64,000 bases of DNA from Desulfallas thermosapovorans DSM 6562 (GTDB taxonomy: Bacteria; Bacillota; Desulfotomaculia; Desulfotomaculales; Desulfallaceae): positions 100,915-164,914 of the forward strand of contig NZ_VNHM01000007.1 of NCBI RefSeq assembly GCF_008124625.1. Reading direction: 5' to 3'. The notes beneath the pieces are model-generated. The model worked only from the letters and a program-made list of their open reading frames with translations, had not been told where the DNA came from and searched no databases. Position numbers and translations under genes: made by a program. Shown in pieces: positions 28,141 through 35,163 of this stretch. The first letter of the stretch is position 1. Each line of letters starts with the position of its first letter.

Positions 28141-28596
28141 TCACCTCCCGGTGAGAGCAAAGAATTTCTTCATGGTGGCATGGGTCAATTTCTTGGGCTT
28201 TACAACAACTAATATGGTGTCATCCCCGGCAACCGTACCGATTACTTCGGGCCAACCGGCATTATCGATGGTAGAGGCCACTCCCTGGGCCTCACCGGGT
28301 AAAGTTTTGATGATAATAAGGTTTTCACTGTAGTCCAGACAGACCACCGAATCTCTGAACAACCTTTTCATCCTGTCTTCATTTCTTGGGTTCAGGGATT
28401 CCCCCGGCACTGTATAGCGGGATATGCCGGAACTGCCGGGTACTTTGATCAAGCCCAATTCTTTAATATCCCTTGATACGGTAGCCTGGGTCACTGAAAA
28501 CCCGGCTTTTTGCAGAACATCAACCAGATCTTCCTGGGTACTGATTTCCTGTTCACTGATTAATTCCAATATTTTTTTATGGCGCCAGGTTTTCAA
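28141..28596 (-). CDS. argR: Arginine repressor ArgR/AhrC
   Basis: 151 residues. The N-terminal winged helix (RHKKILELISEQEISTQEDLVDVLQKAGFSVTQATVSRDIKELGLIKV) is followed by a C-terminal oligomerisation/arginine-binding domain with GTVAGDDTILVVVK. Regulates arginine metabolism; in Bacillus AhrC has the same position upstream of recN. TTG at 28596, inside the end of the methyltransferase gene (stop 28577). Confidence 0.93.
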   Translation of the reverse strand: MKTWRHKKILELISEQEISTQEDLVDVLQKAGFSVTQATVSRDIKELGLIKVPGSSGISRYTVPGESLNPRNEDRMKRLFRDSVVCLDYSENLIIIKTLPGEAQGVASTIDNAGWPEVIGTVAGDDTILVVVKPKKLTHATMKKFFALTGR

Positions 28597-30877: not shown

Positions 30878-32797
30878 TTACGCGCCTCCGCCCAGGCCAA
30901 TAATTTTACCGCCTTTGACTTTCTGTGAGCTAATCATGTGCAACGCCTGGTTAACTATGTTTTCCGCCGTTAACCCGTATTTTTCGCGCAAAATTAACTG
31001 GCTGCCGTGTTCCAAAAACATATCCGCAATACCCAGACATTTAACCTGCATACCGGTAATATCCTTTGCTGCAAACAATTCCAAAACGGCCGATCCAAAA
31101 CCACCGGGTAATGTATTTTCCTCCACGGTTATCAAACGACCGGTACGAATAGCCCACCGGGTGATACAATCCTCATCCAGCGGCTTAATAAACCTGGCAT
31201 TGATAACAGTGGCCAGCACGCCACGTTCTTTCAGCAGAGCCGCTGCGCGACGGGCCACCGGCACCATATTGCCCACAGCCAGCAGTGTGATATCCTTGCC
31301 CTCGGCCAACACTTCGGCCCGGCCCACCGGTAGTACGCGACTGTGCCGGTCCAAAGCCACCCCCAAACCGGTCCCCCGGGGGTAACGCACTGCACAGGGA
31401 CCGTTTAACTGCAGTGCGGTATGCAGCATATGCTGCAATTCATTTTCATCGGCCGGAGCCATTACAGTCATATTGGGAGAGCTACGCAGGTAAGAAATAT
31501 CAAACAAACCGTGGTGTGTCGGGCCGTCATCTCCCACTATACCACTGCGGTCCACAGCAAACACCACCGGCAGTTGCTGCAGGCATACATCGTGGATAAT
31601 TTGGTCATAGGCTCGCTGTAAAAAAGTAGAGTAAATTGCCACCACCGGTTTTAACCCCTGGCTGGCCAACCCGGCCGCCAGGGTAACTGCGTGCTGTTCG
31701 GCAATACCAACATCAAAAAACCGGCGTGGGAACTTTTTGGCAAATTCGCCCAGGCCGGTGCCGCTGCACATAGCCGCAGTAATACCAACAATAGCGGGAT
31801 CCAGCTCCGCCAGTTTAACCAGTGTACGCCCGAATACTTCGGTGTATGTGCTGGTATCACTTTTTTTCAAGCAGTTGCCCGAGCTGATATCAAAGGGCCC
31901 GATACCGTGAAATTTGTCGGCCTTTTCCACCGCAGGCGCGTACCCGCGCCCCTTTTCCGTGATCACATGGACCAGTACCGGGCCACCCAGCGTTCTGGCC
32001 TGTTCAAGGGTGTTCAACAGGGAAGAAAAATTATGCCCGTCAATAGGTCCCAGGTAAGTGAAACCCATTTCTTCAAACAGCATTCCCGGAACAACCAGAT
32101 ATTTAAAACTGTCCTTGAGTCGCTCGGCCACCTTTACCACGGTGGAGCCAATGGAAGGAATGCGGCGCAGTATCTGTTCAATTTCGTCCTTACCCCGGGA
32201 GTATTTGGGGTCGGTACGCAGGCGGTTTAAATAACCGGACATGGCGCCTACATTGGCCGATATACTCATCTCGTTGTCGTTTAAAACCACAATAAGATCC
32301 TTTTTCAAGTGCCCGGCGTGGTTCAGGGCCTCGTAAGCCATACCTCCGGTCATGGACCCGTCACCGATCACGGCCACCACGGCATACCGGTCACCTTTTA
32401 AATCTCTGGCCAGTGCCATACCCAGGGCAGCGGATATGGAAGTGCTGCTGTGACCTGTTCCGAAGGCATCGTGCTCGCTTTCATCCGGGCGGGGAAAGCC
32501 GCTTAGCCCCCCGTAAGTGCGCAGCGTGGCAAATTGCTCCCTCCGGCCTGTAATTAACTTATGCACATAGCACTGGTGCCCCACATCCCAAATGATCTTA
32601 TCCCGGGGAGTGCAAAAGATGCGGTGCAGCGCCAGGGTCAATTCAACTACCCCAAGGTTGGGGGCCAGGTGCCCACCGTTTTTGGCCACCGTGCTAATGA
32701 TCTCTTCTCTTATTTCCCCGGCCAGCTGTTCCAATTGGGTAATGCTAAGCTCCCGCACGTCCCGGGGTGAATTTATTTGCTCCAAATACCTGCCCAA
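30878..32797 (-). CDS. dxs: 1-deoxy-D-xylulose-5-phosphate synthase
   Basis: 639 residues, a transketolase-type TPP enzyme: [14 protein letters not shown] and [16 protein letters not shown] near 70-125, TPP motif [33 protein letters not shown] (about 147-179), and the second domain with [18 protein letters not shown]. First enzyme of the MEP isoprenoid pathway, condensing pyruvate and glyceraldehyde-3-phosphate. TTG 32797 with AGGTGAAACC upstream. It lies between the OLE/OapA locus and tlyA. Confidence 0.96.
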
Positions 32798-32836: not shown

Positions 32837-33412
32837 TTATTTTTTTACTAAACTTATACCCGTTATACTACTGAAGGCGGCCATAATCCTGCCTACGCCA
32901 AAAATAACCTTGTTGGAGTTGCTAAGGGCGATTTTTTTACCATAGGCTTTACCACCCACTGTAAAGGCGGCAATCAGTGCCGTTATTAACATATTCAATA
33001 TAAACCGGTTTAGATCCTCCCTGAGGCTCATGATCTGCAACACCAGGGCTATGCCCAGGGCGCCGCTGACCGTGCCGGCTATGTCACCTATTACATCATT
33101 GGCTATATTGGCTACCCGGTCCGCATTGCGGATTAAAAATACGCCTTCCCGGGCCCCGGCCACTTTCTTGGCGGCCATGGCGTGGAAAGGGGCAACATCT
33201 GCTGCGGCCACCGAGGTTCCAATAATATCCGCCGTTATACCGAATAAAATAATCAATATCAACAACACAAAGGAAAAAGTCAAATTATTTATGGTTTCGG
33301 ATAAAAACTGGGATAATAAAAAGAAAACCGCCGCCAGGACAAAAGAAATTAAACCGACAAACAGCACAAATTTACCGGAAACCGTAGATTTGTTACTTTT
33401 CAAACTCTTCAC
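32837..33412 (-). CDS. oapA: OLE-associated protein OapA-like (DUF21-type membrane protein)
   Basis: About 190 residues with hydrophobic helices at 14-36 (FVLFVGLISFVLAAVFFLLS), 46-66 (FSFVLLILIILFGITADIIG), near 113-127 and near 135-152. The region ADVAPFHAMAAKKVAGAREGVFLIRNADRVANIANDVIGDIAG resembles DUF21 (CNNM/CorC-type) membrane domains but is short and has no CBS domains. OapA binds OLE RNA and localises it to the membrane in alkaliphilic bacilli; the gene lies directly downstream of OLE. GTG 33412 opens the frame; TTG 33403 has a better-spaced GGAG. Assignment rests on the DUF21 look plus position. Confidence 0.8.
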   Translation of the reverse strand: MKSLKSNKSTVSGKFVLFVGLISFVLAAVFFLLSQFLSETINNLTFSFVLLILIILFGITADIIGTSVAAADVAPFHAMAAKKVAGAREGVFLIRNADRVANIANDVIGDIAGTVSGALGIALVLQIMSLREDLNRFILNMLITALIAAFTVGGKAYGKKIALSNSNKVIFGVGRIMAAFSSITGISLVKK

Positions 33413-33426
33413 TCCATTTAATTTGT

Positions 33427-34094
33427 GCCGGTCTAAGCGGCCTTACCCCAATGGTTCCATCCGGTTGGGGGATGTGCGTATGTACAGGAACAAGTGACAA
33501 CGTTACGGGTAAATATTGTGGCTTAGGTCCAGCAGGTTTTCCCAATTTCGTACCGGCTGTCACCATACCGGCGGTTTCCCATTAAACGAAATTCCAAAAG
33601 TTAATTTTGGGGCTGGATTACCACTTAGTCCACACTGCAATCCCCGTACCGTCCCGGACAACCGGACAGCCTAGAAGTTTTCCTTAAACGGGAGTACCTT
33701 ATCCTAGCCTCTTTTGCAACAGCGGTTTAAACCCACAGCACATAACGCATGGGCCCAAGCGTTGTGTGCCGCTTTACAGGCCTCCACCGGCATCACTCAA
33801 GGCAGGCTACACTGCACGCAGCTTTCCCCACGTGCAGGTTTACCCCCAAGCCATAGCAGTTGCCGTTAACAAACTGCCACGCACTTGGGTCTCCACGGGG
33901 GCAGGGTCAACGCCCACATGCCATTGCAGGTCGCCCCGCCCCCTTAACTCCCAGCACCAACCCCCGACTGGGCGTCGGCAGCCAGCACCAGGAACTTCAT
34001 CGATGTGCCCTTGACGGATTTTTAGGCCCGCCTTCAGATAAGGGTTCCCGACTAGGATACTGCGTCACTTGTTCGCAGCATAAATACTTTCAAT
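33427..34094 (-). ncRNA. ole: OLE RNA (ornate, large, extremophilic RNA)
   Basis: A stretch of about 670 nt without a plausible gene on either strand, between ispA and the OapA-like gene, the position known for OLE RNAs in anaerobic and extremophilic Firmicutes. It has its own promoter (34100-34129). The 11-base words 34064-34074 and 33488-33498 are perfectly complementary and would close a domain of about 590 nt, close to the usual size of roughly 600 nt. Inside are many hairpins: 33543-33593 (8 bp), one around 33815-33840 (CTGCACG/CGTGCAG), one around 33748-33775 (GCACA..AACGC/GCGTT..TGTGC), one around 33855-33890 (GGCAGTT/AACTGCT) and a 3-prime one at 33447-33470. It forms a membrane-bound RNP with OapA/OapB and is linked to cold, alcohol and Mg stress. 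Ends are estimates. Confidence 0.85.
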
Positions 34095-34099
34095 CTATT

Positions 34100-34129
34100 A
34101 TTATAACACGATGTTTGCCGGAACGACAA
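34100..34129 (-). promoter_or_regulatory. Sigma-A promoter of the OLE RNA
   Basis: On the minus strand TTGTCG (34129-34124), 18-nt spacer, TATAAT (34105-34100); a perfect -10 box. Transcription would start near 34094. It lies 145-170 nt after the ispA stop, so OLE can be made apart from the xseB-ispA operon. Confidence 0.7.
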
Positions 34130-34272
34130 ACACTCATTCCCGCCGCAGCTCGACAATATGGACCGAATGTCGTCGATTTATAACCCCGCGCAACACCGCG
34201 TTCGGCTTTGGCCGGTATTAGGATAGTTATCCATATAATTTGAACTGTGCAACGAATAGCCGGTTGAATTGC

Positions 34273-35163
34273 TCAATTTTCCCTGTTCAGTACAAATCCA
34301 ACCAGTCCGCGTAAAAAACCGGCCTCAGCGCCAAAGGAAGCCAGGGCACCGGTGGCATGTTCCGCCGCCTGTCGCGCCATGTCCTTGGCGGCTGCCAGGC
34401 CGTACAGCGCAGGATAGGTAGCCTTTTGGTTTTTGGTATCACTGCCCACCGGCTTACCCAGCTTTTGCTCGTCCCCTTCTATGTCCAATATATCATCCAC
34501 AATCTGGAAAGCCAGCCCCAGGTTTTCAGCATAAAGGGTGAGTTTATCCAATTGTTCCGGGGTGGCACCGGATAGCATGGCCCCCGCCCGCACAGAAGCT
34601 TTGTACAGAGCACCGGTTTTACGGCTGTGGATGTAATCCAGCACCTGTCTATCGATTAATTTATCGCTGGAAAGAATATCCACCACCTGGCCGCCGATTA
34701 ACCCCATAGTCCCGGCCGCCACGGCCACCTCGTGAATTACCCGCAGTATCCTGCCGGTATCGACCGATCCGCTCCGGGATAAACCGGCCAGTATCTCAAA
34801 GGCCAGGGTTAGCAGGGCGTCACCAACCAGCACAGCCATGGCTTCGCCATATATTTTGTGGCTGGTGGGACGGCCCCGGCGTAAATCGTCGTTATCCATG
34901 GCCGGTAAATCATCGTGCACCAGCGAGTAAGTGTGCAGCAGTTCTATGGCACAGGCGGCCGGCAGTACGAATTGATATCCTCCCCCCACCGCCCGGGCCG
35001 AGGCCAGCACCAGGGCGGGACGTAGCCGCTTGCCGCCGGCAAATACGCTGTAGCGCATGGCTTCGTGAATTAAGGACGGGTAATTACTTGCCGAAGGAAG
35101 GTATTCATCAAGGGCTTTGTCCACCATGGCGGCGTATCCGGCCAATTCCTCTTTAAAAGCCAT
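34273..35163 (-). CDS. ispA: Polyprenyl synthetase (farnesyl diphosphate synthase type)
   Basis: 296 residues. First aspartate-rich motif DDLPAMD (Asp84, Asp85, Asp90) and second DDILD (Asp223, Asp224, Asp227), with GGKRLRP at 43-49 and the chain-length-determining region LLHTYSLVHDD. The two residues inserted in the first motif are typical of bacterial FPP synthases. ATG 35163 with GAGGAG upstream, 2 nt after xseB. Makes farnesyl diphosphate for polyprenyl carriers and quinones. Confidence 0.95.
   Translation of the reverse strand: MAFKEELAGYAAMVDKALDEYLPSASNYPSLIHEAMRYSVFAGGKRLRPALVLASARAVGGGYQFVLPAACAIELLHTYSLVHDDLPAMDNDDLRRGRPTSHKIYGEAMAVLVGDALLTLAFEILAGLSRSGSVDTGRILRVIHEVAVAAGTMGLIGGQVVDILSSDKLIDRQVLDYIHSRKTGALYKASVRAGAMLSGATPEQLDKLTLYAENLGLAFQIVDDILDIEGDEQKLGKPVGSDTKNQKATYPALYGLAAAKDMARQAAEHATGALASFGAEAGFLRGLVGFVLNREN

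Follow-up and report, generated by a model that had tools for sequence, protein, structure and literature searches.

A full-length OLE RNA in Desulfallas thermosapovorans and a second OLE lineage among its relatives

Introduction

The closest described counterpart of the element considered here is the full-length OLE RNA (Rfam family RF01071) of Halalkalibacterium halodurans. An RNA of the same family is encoded in the window, the whole 64,000-nucleotide stretch of the Desulfallas thermosapovorans DSM 6562 genome that was analysed (contig NZ_VNHM01000007.1, positions 100,915 to 164,914 of the forward strand). The two agree along the entire model in both sequence and structure, lie next to an oapA gene, have a predicted promoter of their own and occur in genomes encoding OapB, OapC and bS21. 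They differ in host group and in helix P6, where the window's RNA lacks the anti-Shine-Dalgarno mimic, CCUCC(U), reported in H. halodurans. Among 127 OLE RNAs compared here, CCUCC is found in the P6 3' strand of only 14; as it is missing from the other 113 and from the window, such mimicry is rejected as a general OLE feature.

Cryo-electron microscopy has shown an OLE dimer held together by A-A pairs in L4, a bridge formed by L5, L6 and L7, and a palindromic L9.3 (PMC12286853); the L5-L6 contact is intermolecular (PMC12265935, PMC12286853). P3 has been proposed as a membrane-spanning helix of fixed length, and ArgR has been named as an unpublished OLE partner (PMC12265935). A k-turn that includes J4a/5 is the reported binding site of OapC, and P13 is part of the reported OapB site (PMC9723947). 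In 2024, Fernando and Breaker described OLE variants 1 (TANB77 clade) and 2 (RF39 clade), with shortened or missing P7, P8 and P9, and found an anticorrelation between MpfA and OLE when 2,822 OLE-bearing genomes were compared with 14,433 OLE-less ones (PMC11332333). GOLLD and ROOL, which belong to other Rfam families, are likewise large ornate RNAs forming homo-oligomers (PMC12286853).

The OLE RNA of D. thermosapovorans

A preliminary description made from the DNA letters alone had proposed a probable OLE RNA at 33427-34094 and suggested an Infernal search with RF01071. This search covers all 616 model positions, end to end, from 34084 to 33478 (Table 1), and the score exceeds the family's gathering score of 50 bits by a wide margin. 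The match, its neighbours, OapA and the other partner genes bear the proposal out, and that 34084-33478 on the minus strand is an OLE RNA is, in our judgement, practically certain. The element had been correctly located, but its limits ran 51 nt too far at the 3' end and 10 nt at the 5' end. OLE is the sole Rfam match in 33000-34600 at E<=1, neither GOLLD nor ROOL being found there. The genome contains a single RF01071 match, and an identical search of 14 control genomes returned none.

The window's RNA is a true, intact and ordinary full-length member of the family. It matches 230 of the 249 upper-case (strongly conserved) consensus positions and has standard pairs at 145 of the 155 Rfam pairs with both bases present, a count of pairing potential. 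P7, P8 and P9 measure 45, 26 and 95 nt; as these segments are long and the P13 region is present, assignment to variant 1 or 2 is rejected.

Table 1. Coordinates of the OLE RNA, its elements and neighbouring genes in the window
Feature	Position	Strand	Evidence or remark
OLE RNA (RF01071), full length, 607 nt	33478..34084	minus	cmscan 516.6 bits, E 1.2e-148, model 1-616
Predicted own promoter, TTGTCG-18 nt-TATAAT, TG before -10	34100..34129	minus	10/12 matches
P1 5' strand	34064..34074	minus	pairs with 33488-33498; two-sided changes in 11/11 pairs, 127 OLEs
P1 3' strand	33488..33498	minus	two-sided changes in 11/11 pairs, 127 OLEs
P2 5' strand	34052..34063	minus	pairs with 33666-33674; 99.9% standard pairs, two-sided change in 4/9 pairs, 127 OLEs
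P2 3' strand	33666..33674	minus	covariation over 127 OLEs
P3/P3.1 5' strand	34037..34049	minus	pairs with 33690-33703; two-sided changes in 12/12 pairs
P3/P3.1 3' strand	33690..33703	minus	11/12 pairs form in window
P4 with A-rich loop CCUAAAAA	34013..34032	minus	sequence; dimer bridge B1 per PMC12286853
J4a/5, one k-turn side	33995..34008	minus	other side 33890-33901; letters GCACAUCGAUGAAG identical in 101/127 OLEs
L5 loop GCCCA (bridge B2)	33969..33973	minus	
GGC of loop L6 (AAUGGC)	33920..33922	minus	complementary to GCC of L5
P9 arch, palindromic tip GGGCCC at 33751-33756 (bridge B3)	33708..33802	minus	
P13 hairpin	33552..33571	minus	sequence; OapB-site role from PMC9723947
ispA (farnesyl diphosphate synthase)	34273..35163	minus	NF045485, 373.1 vs cut-off 275
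oapA	32837..33412	minus	191 aa from GTG, next to OLE
dxs	30878..32797	minus	TIGR00204, 869.1 vs 465.95
argR	28141..28596	minus	TIGR01529, 154.7 vs 130.45; same gene row as OLE

Conserved helices, dimer contacts and promoter

Covariation was examined in 123 distinct full-length OLE RNAs, aligned with MAFFT without structural fitting. These derive from 161 full-length hits before deduplication, with split or N-bearing sequences excluded; four OLEs added later brought the set to 127. Apparent insertions within the OLEs of loci L005 and L075 are runs of N and therefore assembly gaps. Over the 127 sequences, 128 of the 155 Rfam pairs show two-sided changes, amounting to 3281 cells against 858 and 895 in two slid controls. 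Strong covariation beyond the Rfam structure includes P1 (11-21/587-597), P2 (22-33/411-419) and P3/P3.1 (36-48/382-395), all of which lie outside what Rfam models. The window's RNA forms all 11 P1 pairs and has one mismatch (A-C) in P3.

Two-sided cells in P3 number 440, compared with 66-215 when the helix is slid by 1-3 positions, a lenient control because the pairs were picked from a nearly identical alignment. At least ten P3 pairs form in 102 of the 123 OLEs. The 5' strand is 13 nt long in 92 of these and the 3' strand 14 nt in only 58 (range 13-18); P2 and P1 are even more constant in length than P3, and P7 and P9 vary widely (standard deviations of 8.7 and 12.9 nt). The alignment fits the idea of a P3 of fixed, membrane-spanning length, without proving it.

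Judged by sequence, the dimer contact letters are all present in the window: CUAAAAAU, GCCCA with AAUGGC, and GGGCCC. Among 123 OLEs, the six aligned letters of the P9 tip are palindromic in 84 and absent in 15, and the two outer letters covary.

TATAAT is found upstream of OLE at all 16 loci of the window's family, the window included. At 11 of them it forms part of an extended -10 with TTGNNN, in a pattern that requires a spacer of at least 18; by eye, the other five have TTG at 17. When 122 OLEs from every group are taken together, the highest promoter-like score upstream is on average 9.6 out of 12, compared with 7.9 for shuffled sequences.

Proposed function and alternatives

The identity of the RNA, the gene order, the conserved elements and the reported partner genes are all seen directly in this genome. 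By analogy with OLE RNAs of other species, we predict that the window's RNA has its transcription driven by its own promoter and that it folds and likely dimerises through the conserved loops; it would likely dock on OapA, the membrane protein whose gene lies just downstream, and likely control OapA-linked divalent-ion handling under stress. As an overall account we consider this probable, and the family likely helps cells to withstand stress. The specific proposal that a membrane-docked RNA dimer may itself control OapA-linked ion handling, that is, RNA-gated OapA ion transport, is put forward tentatively, at somewhat less than even odds.

An alternative, to which we give perhaps one chance in four, is that OLE is chiefly a ribozyme or a small-molecule synthase (for example of c-di-AMP), with OapA a mere anchor. 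This has been proposed in PMC11332333, and the size and conservation of OLE are like those of known ribozymes. Against it, no catalysis is reported in the portion of the literature examined, and P9 is shorter than 75 nt in 17 of 127 OLEs, so any active site would have to lie elsewhere. The position of OLE directly upstream of oapA and on the same strand could also indicate a long cis-acting leader controlling oapA-dxs and not an independent RNA. We regard this as very improbable, given the conserved promoter of its own and the ~630 nt RNA reported in H. halodurans (PMC9723947). Moreover, one family includes five genomes in which ispA is followed directly by oapA and OLE lies elsewhere, so that there it would have to act in trans.

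Two further readings have negligible probability. One is that the gap between ispA and oapA encodes an unrecognised protein. Plus-strand open reading frames of 107, 82 and 155 aa do run antisense over parts of the gap, but a Pfam search at E<=0.1, the only homology search made with them, matched none, and the two-sided changes in the Rfam pairs speak for a structured RNA; on the minus strand no open reading frame of at least 60 aa is listed. The earlier statement that the gap holds no credible open reading frame agrees with this. The other is that the RNA is a decayed copy without function. Its score is slightly lower than those of six congeners (516.6 against 522.9-544), it departs from the consensus at 19 of the 249 conserved positions, and P3 carries the A-C mismatch; however, the match runs from end to end, the promoter and oapA are intact and the dimer loops are kept.

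A second OLE lineage

Taken alone, the RNA of the window is a further well-preserved member of a large family. More is to be learned from the relatives: the order offers natural experiments on the task of OLE, a question that dates from 2006. The sample of relatives comprised 60 genomes, that of D. thermosapovorans included. OLE lies at most 400 nt from oapA in 50 of the 54 that have both; the two are apart in G019, G025, G044 and G052. Genome G034 has two full-length OLE matches, of 517.8 and 407.2 bits and 66.3% identical to each other, alongside one oapA. A second type, here called OLE-2, is present in all eight genomes found for the family of G034, the first type occurring additionally in G034 only. 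It is also present in one neighbour outside that family, G025. OLE-2-related loci are L108 and L144 (both of G034), L153, L155, L157, L159, L183, L184, L188 and L189.

In a tree of 72 OLEs (633 columns), the OLE-2s fall into a single long-branched clade (ultrafast bootstrap 100%), and the other OLE of G034 groups, with weak support, with full-length OLEs. The L5 loop reads GCCA in nine of 127 OLEs, exactly the nine that do not lie beside oapA, that of G025 among them. None of the nine OLE-2s has the GGGCCC tip, and P9 is 54-61 nt long in seven and 81-82 nt in two, compared with 95 nt in the window. A short P9 alone is not special: it measures fewer than 75 nt in 17 of the 127 OLEs, of which seven are OLE-2s. 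OLE-2 resembles variant 1 in its shorter P7 and P9, yet it keeps P8 and P13, as well as the k-turn letters and the L6 GGC.

OapA was found in six of the eight genomes of the family and not in G060 and G061; dxs, too, had no match in these two at E<=1e-100, so their oapA locus may be unassembled. The genomes in which oapA follows ispA without OLE between are G019, G044, G052, G062 and G063. Genes that we take by eye to be rplU and/or rpmA occur in the fetched stretch with OLE-2 in six of the eight family members, and what is presumably an aminotransferase-like open reading frame of 868-882 aa accompanies it in five; G052, on the same assumption, has neither.

This pattern is best explained if OLE was duplicated once, long ago, and the original copy was later lost. 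We think it reasonably likely that the copy left oapA, lost or rebuilt the P9 arch with its GGGCCC tip, changed L5 and replaced the original in most descendants. The rival to duplication is transfer from an unsampled lineage, and the long OLE-2 branch could mislead the tree. This fuller reading is slightly weakened because P9 in G062 and G063 holds other palindromes (UGAUCA, CCGG) that could kiss, leaving room for a different kissing tip. The idea of a dimer-specific co-change of L5 and L6, with OLE-1 and OLE-2 as orthogonal dimers, was dropped because the letter that precedes GGC in L6 is unconstrained in OLEs whose L5 reads GCCCA. If duplication is correct, the full P9 arch would be dispensable and OLE would work in trans; within one cell, two OLE dimers, or a mixed dimer, could then compete for a single membrane protein. 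OLE-2 itself shows what evolution reduces (the arch and the usual kissing tip) and what it keeps. Genomes with two OLEs came up neither in a search of literature listings covering part of the OLE papers nor in a word search of PMC11332333.

Distribution and loss of OLE

OLE was found in 55 and OapA in 54 of the 60 relatives, and OLE in 223 of 299 genomes drawn across the phylum. With 2,822 hits already known in Bacillota (PMC11332333), the value that the preliminary description attached to an OLE outside the alkaliphilic bacilli was overstated. The OLE genome without an OapA match, G018, is 84% complete; its OLE is cut by a contig end, and decay is not shown by this fragment.

Five relatives lack both OLE and OapA: G030 (57% complete), G040, G049 and G057 (one genus), and G053. 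Searching these five again under laxer settings gave no OLE at E<=1. As dxs is also not found in G040, G049 and G057 (no match at E<=1e-100), they may have lost the locus entirely, or it may be unassembled; this genus possibly uses another isoprenoid route. In G053, ispA and dxs lie 184 nt apart (L202 1308-1491), and the gap, without an OLE or oapA match, holds GGGAGATTTGCCC...TGCTATGATTAC, which resembles the OLE promoter of the congener G035. Read from this sequence, G053 is a case of joint loss of OLE and oapA, with a putative OLE-type promoter left behind. It is also the only one of the 60 genomes without an OapB match, an assembly gap being possible for that gene (97% completeness), and no CNNM/MpfA-type protein was found in it.

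CNNM proteins above the Pfam cut-off occur in 20 of the 55 OLE genomes, including D. thermosapovorans itself and G035, and in none of the five without OLE; they were called MpfA-like by length, CBS domains not being part of the criterion. The MpfA anticorrelation is thus not seen in this order, although it would take more than five OLE-less genomes to overturn it. Replacement of OLE by MpfA does not hold for G053, which speaks against a simple rule of this kind in this group. Together with OLE-2, this genome yields testable predictions on dimerisation, trans action and Mg2+ handling.

In the phylum survey, only three candidates per genome were scored, and G034 is not among the genomes listed. 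More than one OLE match was recorded in five genomes (G174, G231, G261, G279 and G306); even the best E-value in each is weak (1e-54 to 1e-76), and these are likely split hits. An OLE of 399.8 bits was found in Pusillibacter faecalis on pMM59_01 (L205, 195853-205969), which measures 504 kb and has been typed as a conjugative plasmid; its OapA gene is annotated as a CNNM domain-containing protein. It is better read as a chromosome-like replicon than as a mobile OLE, because oapA, dxs, tlyA, NAD kinase and argR accompany the RNA on the 504 kb. Phage records gave no blastn match to the window's OLE.

Gene row and partner genes

The minus-strand gene row runs xseA, folD, fchA (a cyclodeaminase), xseB, ispA, the gap, a 191-aa membrane protein, dxs, tlyA, nadK, mnmM, argR and recN; xseA, folD, nadK and recN are what we take the listed open reading frames to be, by recognition and without a family search. 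From the ispA stop (34273) to the first possible oapA start (33412) there are 860 nt, the size first estimated, and the neighbours agree with the expected OLE locus, with ispA upstream and oapA and dxs downstream. The listed GTG start of oapA overlaps a likely ribosome site, GGAG (33403-33412). Translation may instead begin at TTG 33403, which fits the N-termini of relatives better and leaves room for this site.

The window's OapA is a relative of the OapA proteins found beside OLE, with a CNNM-like membrane fold by prediction. The initial label of a DUF21-like protein agrees with this fold, but no CNNM/DUF21 Pfam match was obtained at E<=0.1; a sequence search of the PDB gave nothing at E<=10. 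The genome also encodes OapB, OapC, bS21 and ArgR. OapB is a homologue of the solved 7k9b (E 8.3e-9), lying between map and infA as read from open reading frames, and was not listed by the KOW Pfam model at E<=0.1. OapC/YbxF, an L7Ae-type k-turn binder (3v7e, E 7.6e-15), is at the rpoC-rpsL locus.

OapA-like genes with none of the usual neighbours were seen in Virgibacillus (L064 7001-7528) and in a record named Roseburia (L065 7001-7486). No OLE lies within 7 kb of either, and they are possible OapA relatives working without OLE nearby. In G028 (L161 1903-2447), where OLE is intact, the adjacent oapA is matched as two pieces that overlap but differ in frame, reflecting a frameshift or a sequencing error.
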